In this document: positions 502-64,000 of the stretch, piece after piece | How positions within the stretch are numbered: the first letter of the stretch is position 1 | Layout of the letters: the number at the start of each line of letters is the position of its first letter | NCBI RefSeq assembly: GCF_000378305.1 | Contig: NZ_KB899538.1 | Coordinates: forward strand, 62,001-126,000 | Direction of reading: 5' to 3' | DNA: 64,000 nt | DNA from: Thioalkalivibrio sp. ALJ12 | GTDB taxonomy: Bacteria > Pseudomonadota > Gammaproteobacteria > Ectothiorhodospirales > Ectothiorhodospiraceae | Position numbers and translations under genes: made by a program | Notes under the pieces: generated by a model | Told to the model about the DNA's origin: nothing | Databases searched by the model: none | The model's input: only the letters and a program-made list of their open reading frames with translations

Positions 502-3500
502 ATGCCGGTCACGCCCTTTCGCCCCGCGACCGATACCTGGTTCGGCGAGGCCTTCGGGCAGGCGACCGCGATCCAGTCGCGCGGCTGGCCCGCGATCCGG
601 GCCGGCCATCACTGCCTGCTGATCGCCCCCACCGGCAGCGGCAAGACCCTCGCCGCCTTCCTCAGCGCCATTGATCGCCTGACCGGCGAGCCCGCCCCGG
701 ATGCCCGTCGCGGCTACTCGGTGCTCTACATCTCGCCGCTGAAGGCGCTGGCCACCGACATCGAACGCAACCTGCGCGCCCCGCTGACCGGGATCGCGCA
801 GACCGCCGCGCGCTTGGGCGATGATGCCCCGCGCGAGCCAGTGGTCCATATCCGCACCGGCGACACCCCGCAGGCCGAGCGCCGCGCTCAGGCGCGCGAA
901 CCCGGCGATATCCTGGTGACCACGCCGGAGTCGCTGTACCTGCTGCTGGGCTCGAAGGCCGCCGAGAACCTCGAATCCGTCCACACGGTGATCATCGACG
1001 AGGTGCACGCGCTGGCCGGCAACAAGCGCGGCGCCCATCTCGCCCTGTCGCTGGAACGCCTGGCCGAGCGCTGCGACAAGGACCCGCAGCGCATCGGGCT
1101 GTCCGCCACCGTGCACCCGGTGGAGGTGGCGCGCGGCTTCCTCGGCGGCGACCGCGAGGTGGAGGTGATCGACGCCGCCGAGCCCCCGCGCCTGGACCTG
1201 GAGATCCTCGCCCCCGAGGAGCCGCCCGCCGCGCACGCAGCGCCGACCGTCGAGGGCCCGGATACGACGACCCCCTCGTCCGGCCCGATCCCGTCCGGCT
1301 CCATCCTCGGCGCGGTGTACAGCCAGGGCACCGGGCAGCTCCCCGCCGCTGGCGGCGACCGCGCCGCACGCCTGGAGCCGCGCCTGCTGGCCGCGATCCT
1401 GGAGCACCGCTCCACCATCGTGTTCGTGAACAGCCGCGGGCTGTGCGAGCGTCTGGTCCAGCGCATCAACGAGGCCTGGCGCGAGCAGCAGCCGGAGGAT
1501 GCCGAACCGGTGGAGGATCTGGTCGCCGCTCACCACGGCAGCGTGTCCCACGAGCGCCGCGCCGAGATCGAGGGCCGGCTGAAGACCGGGCGCCTGCGCG
1601 GCATCGTCGCGACCAGCTCGCTGGAACTGGGCATCGACATGGGCGCGGTGGACCTGGTGATCATGGTCGAATCCCCCGGCGCGGTCGCGCGCGGGCTGCA
1701 GCGCGCCGGGCGTGCCGGGCACGGCGTGGGCCAGGTCTCGCGCTCGCTGCTGCTGCCACGCTTTCGCGGCGACCTGCTCGAATGCGCGGTGATCGGCGAG
1801 CGCATGCAGGCCGGCGCGCTGGAACCGATCCACGCCCCGCACAACCCGCTGGACGTACTCGCCCAGCAGATCGTCGCGATGGTCTGCGAACGCCCGCGCA
1901 CGGTGGACGAGCTGCACGCGCTGGTCCGCCGCGCCGCGCCCTGGCGCGAGCTGTCGCGCCCGTTGCTCGAGGCCACGCTGGACATGCTCTCCGGCCATTA
2001 CCCGAGCACCGACTTCGCCGACCTGCGCCCCTGGCTCGCCTGGGACCGCGCCCGCGACGAGCTGACCCCGCGCCGGGGGGCGGCACTTGCCGCGCGACTG
2101 AACGCCGGGACCATCCCCGACCGCGGGCTGTACGGCGTGCATGTCGGCGAGGGCGGGCCGCGCATCGGCGAACTGGACGAGGAGATGGTGTTCGAGCTGA
2201 AGACCGGCGAGAACGTGACCCTGGGTGCCAGCACCTGGCACGTGGAGGCGATTACCCGCGACCGCGTGCTGGTCTCCCCCGCCCCCGGCGAGGTCGGCAA
2301 GCTGCCGTTCTGGCATGGCGACGGCCCCGGCCGCCCGATCCAGCTCGGCCAGGCCATCGGCGCCGCGACCGAGCGGCTGGCCCGCATGGGCCGCGCCGAA
2401 CGCACGACCTGGCTCAGGGAACACGCGCCACTGTCGGAGGCGGCGGTCGAGACCCTCAGCGACTACATCGACGAGCAGCGCGAGGCCACCAGACAGCTGC
2501 CCTCCGACCAGCGCATCGTGGTCGAACGCTTCCGCGACGAGGTCGGCGACTGGCGCGTCTGCATCCTGACCCCGTTTGGCGCGCGCGTGCACGCCCCCTG
2601 GGCGCTGGCCCTGCAGAGCGCGCTGACCAGCCGCTCCGGCTTCGAGGTGCAGGTGATGTACACCGACGACGGCATCGTGCTGCGCCTGGCCGACAGCGAG
2701 GACCTGCCCGATCTGGACAGCCTGTTCCCCGACCCGGAGGAGCTGGAGGAGGCGGTCACCCGCGAGCTGGGCAACTCCACGCTGTTCGCCAGCGCCTTTC
2801 GCGAGAACGCGGCACGCGCCCTGCTGCTGGTACGCAACCGCCCCGGCCAGCGCACCCCGCTGTGGGCGCAGCGCCTGAAGTCGCAGCAGCTGCTGGCCTC
2901 GGTGCGCGAGTACGCGAGCTTCCCGGTGGTGCTGGAGACCTACCGCCAGGTGCTGGCCGACGTGTTCGACCTGGACGCCCTGCGCCAGATCCTGCGCGGC
3001 GTGCAGGAACGCCGCATCCGCGTGCACGAGGTGGAGACGCCGCAGGCCTCCCCGTTCGCCCGCAGCCTGGTGTTCGCCTATGTCGCGGCCTACATCTACG
3101 AGCAGGACGCGCCGATGGCCGAGCGCAAGGCCCAGGCGCTCACGCTCGACCGCGGCATGCTGGCCGAACTGCTGGGCCAGGCCGAGCTGCGCGAACTGAT
3201 CGACCCCGAGGCCCTAGCCGAGCTGGAGGCCGAGCTGGCGCACGCCACCGAGGCGACCCGGGTGCCGGACGCCGACGCCCTGCACGACCTGCTGCGCCGG
3301 CGCGGGGACCTGAGCCCGGACGAAGTGGCGGCCGCCTGTGCCGAGGCACCGGGGCCGTGGCTGGAACAGCTCGCCCGGTCCCTGCGCGCGGTGGAGGTGC
3401 GCATCGCCGGCGAGTCGCGCTGGATCGCGGCCGAGGACGCCGCGCTCTACCGCGATGCCCTCGGCGTGGTGCCCCCGCCCGGCCTGCCCGCCGCCTTCCT

Positions 3501-13826: not shown

Positions 13827-15878
13827 GTGTCCGACCTGAATCCGCAACAACAGGCGGCCGTGACCACCACGGACCGCCCCCTGCTGGTCCTGGCCGGAGC
13901 GGGCTCGGGCAAGACCCGCGTGATCACCGAAAAGATCGCGTACCTGATCGAGCAGCGCGGGCTCGAGGCGCGCCGGATTGTCGCAATCACCTTTACCAAC
14001 AAGGCCGCGCGCGAGATGCGCGAGCGCGTCCAGGGACGCCTGTCGAAGGAACAGGCGCGCGGGCTCGGCGTCTCCACCTTCCACACCTTCGGGCTGAACT
14101 TCCTGCGCCGCGAACTGGACGCGGCCGGGCTGCGCGCAGGCTTCTCCATCCTCGATCCAGGCGACTGCCGCTCGCTGCTGCGCGAGATCACCTACCGCGA
14201 CGATACCGGCTCCGAGGTCGACGCCCTGATCGGCCACATCAGCCGCTGGAAGAACGACCTGATGACGCCGGAAGAGGCGCTGCATGAAGCCAGCCAGATG
14301 AGCGACGCCCCGGAGGCGATCGCCGCGGCCAATCTCTACCCGCGCTACGAGGATGCCCTTCGCGCCTACAATGCGGTGGACTTCGACGACCTGATCAAGC
14401 GCCCGGTGGACTGCCTGCGTGCGGACACCGAGCTGCGCAACCGCTGGCAGGACCGCATCCGCCACCTGCTGGTGGACGAATACCAGGACACCAACTCCGC
14501 GCAGTACCAGCTGGTGCGCCTGCTGGTGGGCGTCAGTGACGGCCTGACGGTGGTCGGCGACGACGACCAGTCGATCTACGCCTGGCGCGGCGCCCGCCCG
14601 GAAAACCTCGCGCGTCTGCAGCAGGACTTCCCGCGCCTGGAGGTGATCAAACTGGAGCAGAACTACCGCTCCACCAACCGCATCCTGCATACCGCGAATG
14701 CGCTGATCGCCAACAACCCGCATGTGTTCGAGAAACGCCTGTGGAGTGCGCTCGGCGAGGGCGAGAAGATCGAGGTGATCGGCTGCTCCGACGCCGACAC
14801 CGAGGCCGCGCGCGTAGTCTCCGAACTGATGCGCCGGCGCTTTCGCCTGAACGCGGGCTGGGGCGACTTCGCCATCCTCTACCGCAGCAACCACCAGTCA
14901 CGGTTGTTCGAGAAGCTCCTGCGCGAGCAGGGCATCCCCTACCGCCTGAGTGGCGGGCAGTCGTTCTTCGAGAAGGCCGAGATCAAGGACCTGGTCGCCT
15001 ATCTGCGCCTGCTCGCCAACCCGGACGACAACACCGCCTTCCTGCGCGTGGTCAATGTGCCGCGCCGCGAGATCGGCCCGGCGACGCTGGAGAAACTCGG
15101 CCACTACGCCAACCAGCGTGGCACCTCGCTGCTGCAGGCCGCGCGCGGGGCCGGCCTGTCCGAGTACATGGACGCCCGGGCGCAGGCACGCCTGGAACGC
15201 TTCACCGACTGGGTCGACGGCTTCCAGCGCCGCGGCGAGGACGAAGCGCCGGACGCGCTGCTGCGCACCCTGGTCGAGGACATCGACTACGAGTCCTGGC
15301 TGCTGGAGAACAGCTCCAACCCGCGGGCCGCGACCCGACGCATGGAGAACGTGCGCGAGTTCATCGACTGGGTCGGGCGCATGGGTGGCGGCAACACCAC
15401 CGCGGAGTACGGCGACGACGAGGCAGACGACGAGCAGACCATGGACCTGGCCGATATCGTCAACCGCATCAGCCTGATGGACATTCTCGACCGCAACCGG
15501 GAGTCCCAGGACGGCGACGAGTCCGTGCAACTACTGACCCTGCACACGGCCAAGGGGCTGGAGTTCCCGCATGTCTGCCTGGTCGGCTTCGAGGAGGAGC
15601 TGCTGCCGCACCGGGTCAGCGTGGAGGACGATTCCATCGAGGAGGAGCGGCGGCTCGCCTATGTCGGGCTGACCCGTGCCCAGCAGACCCTGCTGATCAC
15701 CTACGCCCAGAACCGGACCCGCTACGGCGAGACCCTCGAATGCGAGCCCTCGCGCTTTCTCGACGAATTGCCCGAAGAACACCTCGAATGGCCGGACGCC
15801 AGGCCGCCGGATCCCGAGACCCAGAAGCTCACTGCCCAGGCCCACCTGGCCGGCCTCAAGGCCATGCTCGGCAAATAG
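13827..15878 (+). CDS. rep: ATP-dependent DNA helicase Rep
   Basis: A 683-residue superfamily 1A helicase of Rep size. Motif I is LAGAGSGKTRVI, then AITFTNKAAREM (motif Ia), LLVDEYQDTN (motif II), VVGDDDQSIYAWRGA (motif III), QNYRST (motif IV), LLTLHTAKGLEFP (motif V) and EEERRLAYVGLTRAQ (motif VI). Rep unwinds DNA 3'-5' and removes proteins ahead of replication forks; Rep rather than UvrD is favoured by the length and the MSDLNPQQ start. The start is a GTG at 13827 with AAGGAAG upstream. It is a single gene, divergent from the lipoprotein unit and followed by a hairpin. Confidence 0.95.
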   Translation: MSDLNPQQQAAVTTTDRPLLVLAGAGSGKTRVITEKIAYLIEQRGLEARRIVAITFTNKAAREMRERVQGRLSKEQARGLGVSTFHTFGLNFLRRELDAAGLRAGFSILDPGDCRSLLREITYRDDTGSEVDALIGHISRWKNDLMTPEEALHEASQMSDAPEAIAAANLYPRYEDALRAYNAVDFDDLIKRPVDCLRADTELRNRWQDRIRHLLVDEYQDTNSAQYQLVRLLVGVSDGLTVVGDDDQSIYAWRGARPENLARLQQDFPRLEVIKLEQNYRSTNRILHTANALIANNPHVFEKRLWSALGEGEKIEVIGCSDADTEAARVVSELMRRRFRLNAGWGDFAILYRSNHQSRLFEKLLREQGIPYRLSGGQSFFEKAEIKDLVAYLRLLANPDDNTAFLRVVNVPRREIGPATLEKLGHYANQRGTSLLQAARGAGLSEYMDARAQARLERFTDWVDGFQRRGEDEAPDALLRTLVEDIDYESWLLENSSNPRAATRRMENVREFIDWVGRMGGGNTTAEYGDDEADDEQTMDLADIVNRISLMDILDRNRESQDGDESVQLLTLHTAKGLEFPHVCLVGFEEELLPHRVSVEDDSIEEERRLAYVGLTRAQQTLLITYAQNRTRYGETLECEPSRFLDELPEEHLEWPDARPPDPETQKLTAQAHLAGLKAMLGK

Positions 15879-15912
15879 CCGCTGCGCGGCCGGGGAGCCT
15901 TCGCTCACTACT

Positions 15913-58725: not shown

Positions 58726-59604
58726 TCAGCGCCGGCGGCGGGTGACCTCCTCCCGCGAATCCCCCTCGGTCTCTGGGCGGCGATTGATCGGATAGCTGTC
58801 GGCGGGCCCGACGAATGGCTGGATCAGCATGCGATCGAGCCGCTCCCAGGCGGGGTCGCGGAACTGGTTCAGCCCAATCGTCATCCCGTCATGCCCGTCC
58901 TGCGGCTGCGCGCGGTAGGTCCCCATGATCCGGTCCCAGAGCGAGAGGTTGAATCCGAAGTTCGAGTTGGTCTCGTGCGGATACCAGGAATGGTGGACGC
59001 GGTGGAAGTCCGGCGTGACGATGAACCAGCGCAGCACCCGGTCCACCGCGGCCGGCATGCGCACGTTGGAGTGGTTGAACAGGGCCAGCGAGCTGAGGAT
59101 CACCTCGAAGATCAGCACCGCCAGTGCCGGGGCGCCGATTGCGACCACCACCATGGCCTTGATACCGAACGACAGCACAATTTCCAGCGGGTGGAAGCGC
59201 AGGCCGGTGGTCACGTCGAAGTCGAGATCCGCATGGTGCATGCGGTGCAGCCGCCACAGCGACGGGACGGCATGAAACATCACGTGCTGGGCCCAGATCG
59301 CGAAATCGAGGACCACGACCGCGATCAGCACGACCAGCCAGAAGGGCAGGTCCAGCATCTGCAGCAGCCCCCAGCCCTGGGTCTCGACGAACAGCCCCAG
59401 GCCCACCAGCCCCGCCGGGAACAGGAACCGGGTCAGCAGCGTGCCGGTAATCACCACGCCCCAGTTATTCGACCAGCGATAGGCCTTGCCCACCGACAGG
59501 GGACGTCGCGGCCCCAGGATCTCCCAGGTCGCCATGATCGCCAGAACGGACAGCAGGATGCCGACCCGAATGATCGGCTCCTGCGCCAGAAACCAGTCCG
59601 CCAT
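58726..59604 (-). CDS. Sterol desaturase/fatty acid hydroxylase superfamily membrane protein
   Basis: A 292-residue membrane-bound di-iron protein. Histidine boxes are AQHVMFH (HxxxH), WRLHRMHHAD (HxxHH) and DFHRVHHSWYPHETNSNFGF (HxxHH plus HE), with three or four hydrophobic segments before and between (ILLSVLAIMATWEILG, FLFPAGLVGLGLFVE, FWLVVLIAVVVLDFAIW, VVVAIGAPALAVLIFEVILSSLALF). Members oxidise lipids such as sterols, fatty acids or hopanoids; substrate unknown here. It is 42 bases downstream of dksA on the same strand. Confidence 0.9.
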   Translation of the reverse strand: MADWFLAQEPIIRVGILLSVLAIMATWEILGPRRPLSVGKAYRWSNNWGVVITGTLLTRFLFPAGLVGLGLFVETQGWGLLQMLDLPFWLVVLIAVVVLDFAIWAQHVMFHAVPSLWRLHRMHHADLDFDVTTGLRFHPLEIVLSFGIKAMVVVAIGAPALAVLIFEVILSSLALFNHSNVRMPAAVDRVLRWFIVTPDFHRVHHSWYPHETNSNFGFNLSLWDRIMGTYRAQPQDGHDGMTIGLNQFRDPAWERLDRMLIQPFVGPADSYPINRRPETEGDSREEVTRRRR

Positions 59605-59646: not shown

Positions 59647-60072
59647 CTACTGACCGAAGCGCGCCTCGTTGCGTTCATGGGCCTCCTGGGCCGCCACGCT
59701 CAGGGTCGCGATCGGACGAGCCTCCAGGCGAGCGATACCGATCGGTTCGCCGGTCTCCTCGCAGTAGCCGTACTCGCCCAGATCAATACGCGCCAGGGCC
59801 GCATCGATCTTGTTCAGCAGCTTGCGGTAGCGATCGCGCGTGCGCAGCTCCAGCCCGGCATCGGCCTCGTGAGTCGCGCGGTCGTTGGGGTCCGGTTCCT
59901 GCCAGCTCTCGGTGCGCAGGTGCTCGAGCGTCTGCTCGGACTCCTCGATCAGTTCCGCACGCCAGGCCTCGAGCTTGGCGCGAAAGTAGTCCAGCTGACG
60001 CGGATTCATGTAGGGTTCGTCCTCGGACGGACGATACCCGGACTCCAGGATAGTTTCGGCTTCTTGGCTCAT
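59647..60072 (-). CDS. dksA: RNA polymerase-binding transcription factor DksA, cysteine-poor (CTSA) type
   Basis: A 141-residue DksA: N-terminal helix, long coiled coil (LDYFRAKLEAWRAELIEESEQTL... ) with the tip motif DPNDRA (61-66, the DxxDxA signature) and LELRTRDRYRKLLNKID, then the globular end YGYCEETGEPIGIARLEARP. The four zinc-ligand positions of E. coli DksA are here Cys104, Thr107, Ser125 and Ala128, so zinc should not bind; the same C-T-S-A pattern is known in the zinc-independent DksA2 of Pseudomonas aeruginosa. It works with ppGpp at rRNA and amino acid promoters. The ATG at 60072 is chosen by homology. Confidence 0.93.
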   Translation of the reverse strand: MSQEAETILESGYRPSEDEPYMNPRQLDYFRAKLEAWRAELIEESEQTLEHLRTESWQEPDPNDRATHEADAGLELRTRDRYRKLLNKIDAALARIDLGEYGYCEETGEPIGIARLEARPIATLSVAAQEAHERNEARFGQ

Positions 60073-60213: not shown

Positions 60214-61007
60214 ATGCACACCATGAGCACCACGCAGCGCCTGATCCAGATCAGTGACACCCACCTGGGCCGCGTGCCCGGGCCGATCCGGGCCGGCTAT
60301 CCGGACAGCGACACCCAGCTGGAACGAATCCTCGGCGCCCTGCCCCGGGAGCCGGCGGCGGATGCCCTGCTCCTGAGCGGCGATCTGGCCGAGGATCCGG
60401 AACCAGCGACCTATGCTCGGCTGGCGCGACTGCTGGGCAGCCGGCGCGAACCGATGCTCGCACTCGCCGGCAACCACGACGATTGCCAGACCCTGCGCAC
60501 CGCCCTGGAGCCCGAGACCTGTCAAGTCCATGGCGAGAGGATGCTGGGGCCCTGGAAGCTGATCGGCCTGGATTCCAGCACACCCGGCGAGGCGGCCGGG
60601 CGTCTGGACGCGTCAGAGTGCGAGCGCCTGGAGAAAAGCCTGTCGGCCGATCCGGACCGCCCTACCGTCGTCGCCCTGCACCATCCGCCAGTGGCCATTG
60701 GCAGTGTCTGGATGGATCGCCTGGGGCTGCTGGATCCGGACGCGCTGTTCGCGGTGCTCGACCGCCATCCGCAGGTGCGCGCCTGCCTGTTTGGTCACAT
60801 CCACCAGGACTTCCGGGCCCGGCGGGGTGCGATCGAGTTCCTCGGAAGCCCGTCGACCTGCGTGCAGTTCACGCCGGGCTCCGAAGAGTTCGCCGTGGAT
60901 GCGGCCCTGGACGCCGGCTACCGCATTCTGGATCTGCACCCGGATGGGCGATTCGATACGCAGGTGGTCCGCGTACCGGGGACCCGCATCGCCATGGAAC
61001 CTTCGGC

Positions 61008-61011
<4 letters not shown>
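60214..61011 (+). CDS. cpdA: 3',5'-cyclic-AMP phosphodiesterase CpdA
   Basis: A 265-residue calcineurin-like metallophosphoesterase. The metal-binding blocks are QISDTHLG, LLLSGDLAEDP, LALAGNHDD, VVALHHPPV and LFGHIHQDF, in the order and spacing of CpdA/Icc, which hydrolyses cAMP. Length fits E. coli CpdA (275). The start may be the ATG at 60214 or the one three codons later. The stop overlaps amgK by four bases (ATGA), so cAMP turnover and muramate recycling enzymes are co-translated. Confidence 0.93.
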
Positions 61012-63159
<2,148 letters not shown>

Positions 63160-63199: not shown

Positions 63200-64000
63200 T
63201 CATACCTTGATGTAGATCCAGCCTTCGGCCTGACGGCGCGCGGCCTCGGCTACGCCGGAATCGATCCGTTCGGCCTGCGGGAGGATGTCCACCGTGCCGC
63301 CCTCCTCGCGGGCCAGACGATCGAGGGTCTGGGTGCAGGCCGTGAAACGCAGGCTCGCATACTCCTGGCTGAGCGCCGCAACCCGCTCGGGATACGGAGC
63401 CCGGTCCGTGCGCAGGAAATCCATCGCGTTGTTGTGCACCACGACCTGCACGTTCAGCTCGCGACCATCGGCCGCCGCGTCGCGGTACATCGCCTCGATG
63501 TCGTCCAGCAGCTCGGCCATGGATTTCGGGTCGGCCTCGTTGATATGCAGCAGGATCTGGTCAGTCTCGGTCGCCGCGACGACCTGCGGCGCGGAGCCAT
63601 CGGCCTGATCGCTACCGGCAATCAGCGCCGTCTCGCCGGCATCACCACCAATCAAGGCGGTTGGTTCGCCACTCCCGAGGAATCCGGCGTCGCGCGTAAT
63701 CTCGTAACCCGCCAGGGACCCCAGCACGAGCGCCACCACCCCGGCCGCCATCGACGGGAACCAGTGGGTACGTGATGATCGGGAGATACGACAGCGTCCG
63801 CCGCCTGACTGGGCCGTGGGAAGGTCCTCGTAGGCCATGCCCACCAGCTCCTTGAGCTGGTGCATATCGCAGACCTCTCGGCTCAGGCGCTCGCTGGAGG
63901 AGATCAGCTTCAGTGTATTGAGGCGATCCTCGGGCGAGAATTCGCCATCGACGAACGCATTGAGAATCTCCTCGCTGGGGCGATCCTGCGCATTGAGACG
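63200..64000 (-). CDS. Anti-sigma-factor-like domain fused through a membrane helix to a DsrE domain (5' end outside window)
   Basis: The frame runs from the right edge to the stop at 63200, showing 266 residues; the start is beyond 64000. Visible residues 1-60 (DRPSEEILNAFVDGEFSPED, RLNTLKLISSS, then REVCDMHQLKELVGMAYEDLP) look like the N-terminal helices of anti-sigma factors with the typical NAFVDGE start and HQLKELV...YEDLP helix. Residues about 82-99 (MAAGVVALVLGSLAGYEI) are a membrane helix. After a Gly/Ala-rich linker, residues about 147-266 are a DsrE domain (ILLHINEADP, NVQVVVHNNAMDFLR, LRFTACTQTLDRL with Cys222, ending GWIYIKV). An ATG at 63865 is possible but would cut the anti-sigma domain in two, so I read the gene as incomplete at this edge. 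Confidence 0.75.
   Translation of the reverse strand, partial: RLNAQDRPSEEILNAFVDGEFSPEDRLNTLKLISSSERLSREVCDMHQLKELVGMAYEDLPTAQSGGGRCRISRSSRTHWFPSMAAGVVALVLGSLAGYEITRDAGFLGSGEPTALIGGDAGETALIAGSDQADGSAPQVVAATETDQILLHINEADPKSMAELLDDIEAMYRDAAADGRELNVQVVVHNNAMDFLRTDRAPYPERVAALSQEYASLRFTACTQTLDRLAREEGGTVDILPQAERIDSGVAEAARRQAEGWIYIKV

Follow-up and report, generated by a model that had tools for sequence, protein, structure and literature searches.

A One-Cysteine DksA Paralogue Beside a Canonical Four-Cysteine DksA in Thioalkalivibrio

Introduction

Thioalkalivibrio sp. ALJ12 possesses a DksA in which only one of the four zinc cysteines of Escherichia coli DksA is left. This protein is an accessory paralogue beside a canonical four-cysteine (C4) DksA, one of several copies in the genome, and it is of a type already known. 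Its gene lies in a stretch of 64,000 nucleotides (assembly GCF_000378305.1, contig NZ_KB899538.1, positions 62,001–126,000), referred to here as the window; positions given without a contig are those of the window. Very probably, the gene encodes a functional zinc-free DksA that resembles E. coli DksA, is accessory to the C4 protein and provides an activity independent of zinc and redox state outside the control of Zur.

A DksA with a Single Zinc Ligand

The coordinates 59647–60072 proved correct for this gene, stop codon included, and the plus-strand translation of the same interval, as read by eye, is not a DksA (Table 1). The protein scores 146.8 bits against TIGR02420, the DksA equivalog, for which the curated cut-off is 115.5, and it also passes the cut-offs of the Pfam families DksA_N and zf-dskA_traR. 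When it is aligned with E. coli DksA, C114, C117, C135 and C138 correspond to C104, T107, S125 and A128 with identical spacing, and alignment with the canonical paralogue of its own genome gives the same reading. The protein thus carries C-T-S-A in place of the canonical set of four cysteines. A preliminary description of the window had reported a DksA of this kind at exactly the E. coli spacing, which the profile score and the alignments bear out.

As only one of the four ligands is left, zinc is not expected to bind at this site. The preliminary description had further implied that the protein works independently of zinc. This stands in so far as no zinc is expected at the site and a DksA-like function without zinc is plausible, non-C4 DksAs having been characterized (PMC9239242, in its part on these proteins), but the analogy with DksA2 of Pseudomonas aeruginosa that went with it does not hold, as described below.

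Table 1. Positions of the one-cysteine dksA, its neighbours and its paralogues.
Feature	Position	Strand	Remarks
One-cysteine (C-T-S-A) dksA	59647..60072	minus	141 aa + stop; ATG at 60072, stop ends at 59647
Cys104 codon (= E. coli C114), sole ligand left	59761..59763	minus	alignment
Thr107 codon (= E. coli C117)	59752..59754	minus	alignment
Ser125 codon (= E. coli C135)	59698..59700	minus	alignment
Ala128 codon (= E. coli C138)	59689..59691	minus	alignment
Coiled-coil tip D61-P-N-D64-R-A66, DxxDxA motif	59875..59892	minus	alignment
Calcineurin-like phosphoesterase, divergent	60214..61011	plus	adjoins dksA in 23/23 Thioalkalivibrio loci
Fatty-acid hydroxylase family gene	58726..59604	minus	directly downstream of dksA, between dksA and argA
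Canonical C-C-C-C DksA (locus L002), full-length	contig C1:1380015-1380389		
DksA2-type C-S-C-V DksA, full-length	contig C1:261691-262041		
Zinc-starvation-type cluster: folE2, C-S-C-V dksA2-type, COG0523-type GTPase	locus L173, 2599-5329 (contig C1 about 260598-263328)		
TraR-like C4 protein, short	contig C2		92-residue frame

Paralogues in the Same Genome

A search of the genome (2.78 Mb, 99.97% complete) with PF01258 returned four genes: the window gene, a C-C-C-C DksA, a C-S-C-V DksA and a short TraR-like C4 protein. With two further full-length DksAs in the genome, the window protein is rejected as the sole DksA of the organism, a possibility that the preliminary description had raised. 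That description had itself proposed a search for a second, cysteine-rich DksA and held that a canonical one would reduce the window gene to an accessory paralogue; such a gene was found. Its further suggestion, that stringent control in the whole organism would not respond to zinc or oxidants, falls because of the canonical C4 DksA: with this copy present, stringent control in the Thioalkalivibrio cell could still respond to zinc or oxidants.

Relation to DksA2 and to Zur

The C-T-S-A pattern had been taken for that of P. aeruginosa DksA2. However, in the solved structure of DksA2 (PDB 4ijj, PA5536) the four positions read C-T-C-A, and the part of PMC9213440 that deals with DksA2 calls it a 2-Cys protein that does not coordinate zinc and is repressed by Zur. 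The same part describes DksA2 as having fully substituted for DksA1 under oxidative stress in P. aeruginosa, unlike earlier observations in Salmonella.

Is the window gene, nevertheless, the DksA2 reserve of this organism for zinc starvation, switched on by Zur at low zinc? The window protein lacks three of the ligands, and one DksA2-type protein of Thioalkalivibrio (locus L146, contig C11 of genome G013), whose gene has a Zur-like palindrome at its start, also reads C-T-S-A, so that this pattern is shared by members of two different DksA clades. Both points agree with this alternative, which we nonetheless consider very improbable in view of sequence identity, the tree and the surroundings of the genes. 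The window protein shares 43% identity with 4ijj, as compared with 56% for the C-S-C-V paralogue. A tree was made from 84 rows picked from 226 DksA-type frames plus two PDB stretches, with few columns and 19 of its 81 inner branches open. In this tree the C4 proteins form one side of a branch (100/99), and a DksA2-type clade of six rows (99/96) includes 4ijj and the C-S-C-V protein and leaves the window protein outside, 4ijj being on a long branch with its exact place flagged as unsure.

The C-S-C-V dksA is flanked by folE2 (PF02649) and a COG0523-type gene with cobW domains, and ABC transporter genes (PF00005, PF00950) are found about 2 kb from it. The exact palindrome GTTATRNYATAAC occurs once in the whole genome, between folE2 and the C-S-C-V dksA. 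A palindrome GTTAT-N3-ATAAC, which we call Zur-like on the basis of what we take to be the Zur-box consensus, stands with perfect arms just upstream of all seven DksA2-type genes in Thioalkalivibrio, though it was not found in the 1527-base locus of the sole DksA2-clade gene read outside the genus (L145; best match, three mismatches). The genome has three Fur-family genes, and one of them, at a distance of about 6.6 kb from the palindrome, may encode Zur. Upstream of the window dksA, no Zur-like box was found in about 300 bases, the best match having four mismatches, and the COG0523/FolE2 context that accompanies the box at the C-S-C-V paralogue was likewise not found at the window gene. The best matches at 23 other one-cysteine loci have two mismatches (L029), three (L028 and L030) or four or five (the rest), and at the five C4 genes inspected, out of 21, they have four or five. 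Zur-controlled DksA paralogues with COG0523 and FolE2 neighbours are described in parts of PMC2770081 and PMC10393844, and it is the C-S-C-V gene, a separate gene from the window dksA, that fits them.

Since it belongs to the clade of 4ijj, has folE2 and COG0523 neighbours and has the only exact copy of the palindrome in the genome, the C-S-C-V gene is likely the DksA2 counterpart in this genome. The window gene is rejected as a DksA2 orthologue by the tree and by the palindrome, which is present at the C-S-C-V gene and absent from the upstream region searched at the window gene. The window protein thus differs from P. aeruginosa DksA2 in its ligand letters and its clade, and its gene differs from the Zur-repressed gene of P. 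aeruginosa (PMC9213440, same part) in having no Zur-like box in that region.

Conservation within the Genus

Thioalkalivibrio thiocyanoxidans ARh2 and Thioalkalivibrio sp. ALJ3 each have a protein with 100% identity to that of the window, in the same gene order, and five neighbouring proteins are 89–95% identical to their ARh2 counterparts. Among 25 genomes of the genus, the one-cysteine dksA is present in 23 (missing from G006 and G008, of completeness 80 and 79), the C4 dksA in 21 (missing from G003, G006, G014 and G017, of completeness 96, 80, 67 and 96) and a DksA2-type gene in seven (six C-S-C-V and one C-T-S-A). Where completeness is ≥96%, both the one-cysteine and the C4 gene are present in 17 genomes out of 19. 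G003 and G017, both fragmented assemblies, have the one-cysteine gene without the C4 gene, an absence that could be a real loss or an assembly gap.

The 23 Thioalkalivibrio loci from named records that are found among the best 80 of 505 loci related to the window protein read C-T-S-A in 21 cases and C-S-S-A in two. The dN/dS ratio of the one-cysteine gene, window vs 11 loci, ranges from 0 to 0.16, as compared with 0.04 to 0.24 for the C4 paralogue (10 loci), 0 to 0.35 for the DksA2-type gene (five loci) and 0.23 to 0.43 for the neighbouring phosphoesterase (five loci); the one-cysteine dksA is under strong purifying selection. With these ligand counts and ratios, chance or sequencing error is an unlikely origin of the missing cysteines.

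The divergent phosphoesterase gene, presumably icc/cpdA-like, is joined by a phosphotransferase-like gene (a label given by eye) and a nucleotidyltransferase gene on one side of the one-cysteine dksA in 23/23 loci. On the other side argA is found in 14 of the 23, some loci being short there. The fatty-acid hydroxylase gene occupies its place in only the three closest of the 23 loci; it is thus not a conserved partner of dksA, and a functional link between the two is rejected. It may be a recent insertion, or it may have been lost from the other loci. Elsewhere in the window, an ORF at 62671–63159 on the minus strand is DsrE/DsrF-like (PF02635), and its neighbour at 63200–63865, also on the minus strand, looks similar by eye and has no Pfam hit.

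These data bear on the alternative that the window dksA has no role, being either in decay or a recent transfer. Its nearest relatives outside the genus among the best 80 of 505 loci are alphaproteobacterial (73% identical at best), which would favour transfer, although these loci come from a scan whose peptide seeds favour the motif (one seed being GEYGYCEE). A copy of this kind is extremely unlikely, considering the constant place beside the phosphoesterase gene, the strong purifying selection and the presence of the gene in nearly every genome of the genus.

Relatives in Other Proteobacteria

Besides the 23 Thioalkalivibrio loci, the best 80 of 505 loci comprise 57 with alphaproteobacterial titles, of which 55 have a one-cysteine DksA and two (L036 and L061) read C-T-C-A. 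The reading C-T/S-S/T-A is thus found in 78 of these 80 loci, a figure that is not a frequency because of the seeds of the scan. A class-wide draw gave gammaproteobacterial relatives up to 71% identical (G238, which the tree places as sister to Thioalkalivibrio at 97/82). The Thioalkalivibrio one-cysteine rows form a group of their own (100/98) among alpha- and gammaproteobacterial one-cysteine DksAs, with a weak fork (89/74) joining the alpha and gamma rows and poorly resolved deeper forks. Given these forks, the gammaproteobacterial relatives and the seeds of the scan, a possible transfer involving Alphaproteobacteria could have run in either direction. The window protein has the letters C-T/S-S/T-A and also groups with these rows, the one-cysteine proteobacterial DksA group being a grouping made in this analysis from alpha- and gammaproteobacterial sequences. 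Ligand letters alone do not define this clade, since the gammaproteobacterial rows L198 (C-T-S-A), L202 and L206 (both C-T-C-A) sit with the C4 proteins and L200 (C-T-S-A) is placed near DksA2.

The class-wide draw covered 370 gammaproteobacterial genomes, 287 of which gave a match at E 1e-30, and ligand residues were read only in the loci returned. Thirty-two of these genomes, 30 chosen by similarity and two because they belong to the same family, were re-searched with TIGR02420 at E 1e-20. A one-cysteine DksA is present in 26 of the 32, and 15 of these have no other match; with three further genomes that have only C-T-C-A, the sole match is non-C4 in 18. One one-cysteine and one C4 protein are found in 11 genomes, C4 with a second match of unread ligands in one (G329), and C4 alone in the two family members (G116 and G308). 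At least four of the 18 genomes with a sole non-C4 match (G250, G330, G345 and G130) are outside the one-cysteine group of the window protein in the tree. The alphaproteobacterial and re-searched gammaproteobacterial counts, both from sets selected for similarity to the window protein, indicate that the one-cysteine motif is ordinary in Proteobacteria. Sole non-C4 DksAs seem to occur in other Gammaproteobacteria, not in the organism of the window.

Several individual loci may be recorded here. The sole TIGR02420 match (E 1e-20) reads C-T-T-A, C-T-S-A or C-T-C-A at L177, L178 and L179 (genomes G340, G167 and G264) and others. In two genomes of the gammaproteobacterial family f101, a one-cysteine and a C4 dksA adjoin tail to tail (L214, contig C31 of G230, 2621–3455; L186, contig C194 of G381, 14992–15900).

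Two alphaproteobacterial proteins, R. sphaeroides RSP2654 and S. meliloti SMc00469, are described in part of PMC9239242 as being without a C4 finger and working like DksA, with other functionally important features retained. The window protein is similar to them as a non-C4 DksA, whereas it differs in being accessory to a C4 DksA in the same cell and in belonging to a gammaproteobacterium. Three loci with Rhodobacteraceae titles (L053, L075 and L080), taken here for comparison, read C-T-S-A.

Tip, ppGpp Contacts and Predicted Fold

The tip residues D61, D64 and A66 of the window protein are identical to D71, D74 and A76 of E. coli DksA, and the DxxDxA motif is named a critical feature of DksA in part of PMC9239242. 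Of the five E. coli residues of ppGpp site 2 (R91, L95, K98, R129 and K139; contacts taken from part of PMC7676912), four are kept as R81, L85, K88 and R119. The tip and these four residues are invariant in 37 aligned relatives (35 one-cysteine and two C-T-C-A). The contact K139 is replaced by Gln129, and Gln is likewise invariant in all 37 rows, so that the response of the window DksA to ppGpp could be weaker.

The invariant Gln, together with the coexistence of one-cysteine and C4 genes across the genus, would suit a protein that has diverged into a ppGpp-insensitive competitor or modulator of C4 DksA binding to RNA polymerase. Such a divergence is unlikely in our view, as the other four contacts are retained without variation. 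Moreover, it appears that a non-C4 protein can fill the place of DksA, judging from the 18 of 32 re-searched genomes in which one is the sole match, at least four of them outside the group of the window protein, and RSP2654 and SMc00469 function like DksA (PMC9239242, in the part cited above).

An AlphaFold2 model of the window protein, in which no metal was modelled, has a mean pLDDT of 85.2, with 92–93 over residues 101–120, and matches E. coli DksA (PDB 1tjl) with a TM of 0.83 and DksA2 (4ijj), with which it would share a DksA fold without zinc, with a TM of 0.80. The model supports the fold and does not decide the metal content, since zinc-bound and zinc-free DksA are matched alike. Taken feature by feature, the window protein resembles E. 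coli DksA in the tip residues, four of the five ppGpp contacts checked and the predicted fold, and differs from it in the four zinc cysteines and in having Gln where E. coli has K139.

A Possible Mode of Action

A functional accessory DksA could work as follows. If expressed, the one-cysteine protein would bind RNA polymerase, its coiled coil entering the secondary channel and its DxxDxA tip acting at the active site, and ppGpp would be bound between the protein and the β′ rim helices. In place of the zinc finger, the same globular fold may be packed without metal. The most likely role of the one-cysteine copy would be to provide DksA activity irrespective of zinc loading and of the redox state of cysteines, and outside the control of Zur, and the third, DksA2-type gene with its Zur-like box is a likely reserve for zinc starvation.

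A wider reading can be offered tentatively, as a possibility that we rate as rather doubtful. Thioalkalivibrio may keep a layered set of a C4 DksA that can sense zinc and oxidants, an always-present one-cysteine DksA blind to both and, in seven of 25 genomes, a DksA2-type protein whose gene has a Zur-like box. The one-cysteine protein would then steady the stringent response in soda-lake cells, where the high pH and the chemistry of sulfide and polysulfide might strip zinc from the C4 protein or persulfidate it. It is a guess that the one-cysteine and C4 proteins divide their labour in the face of sulfide, polysulfide and high pH.

Concluding Remarks

A false lead, that of a gammaproteobacterium with a zinc-blind DksA alone, is removed by this analysis, and a factual slip on the ligand pattern of P. 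aeruginosa DksA2 is corrected. Gammaproteobacteria in which a non-C4 DksA is the only match are candidates in which the idea of a zinc-blind stringent response could be tested. Thioalkalivibrio is a natural system in which one-cysteine and C4 DksAs occur together in nearly all well-assembled genomes, with a third copy beside a Zur-like box in some, and the genus would provide a further place to ask how paralogous DksAs divide their work.
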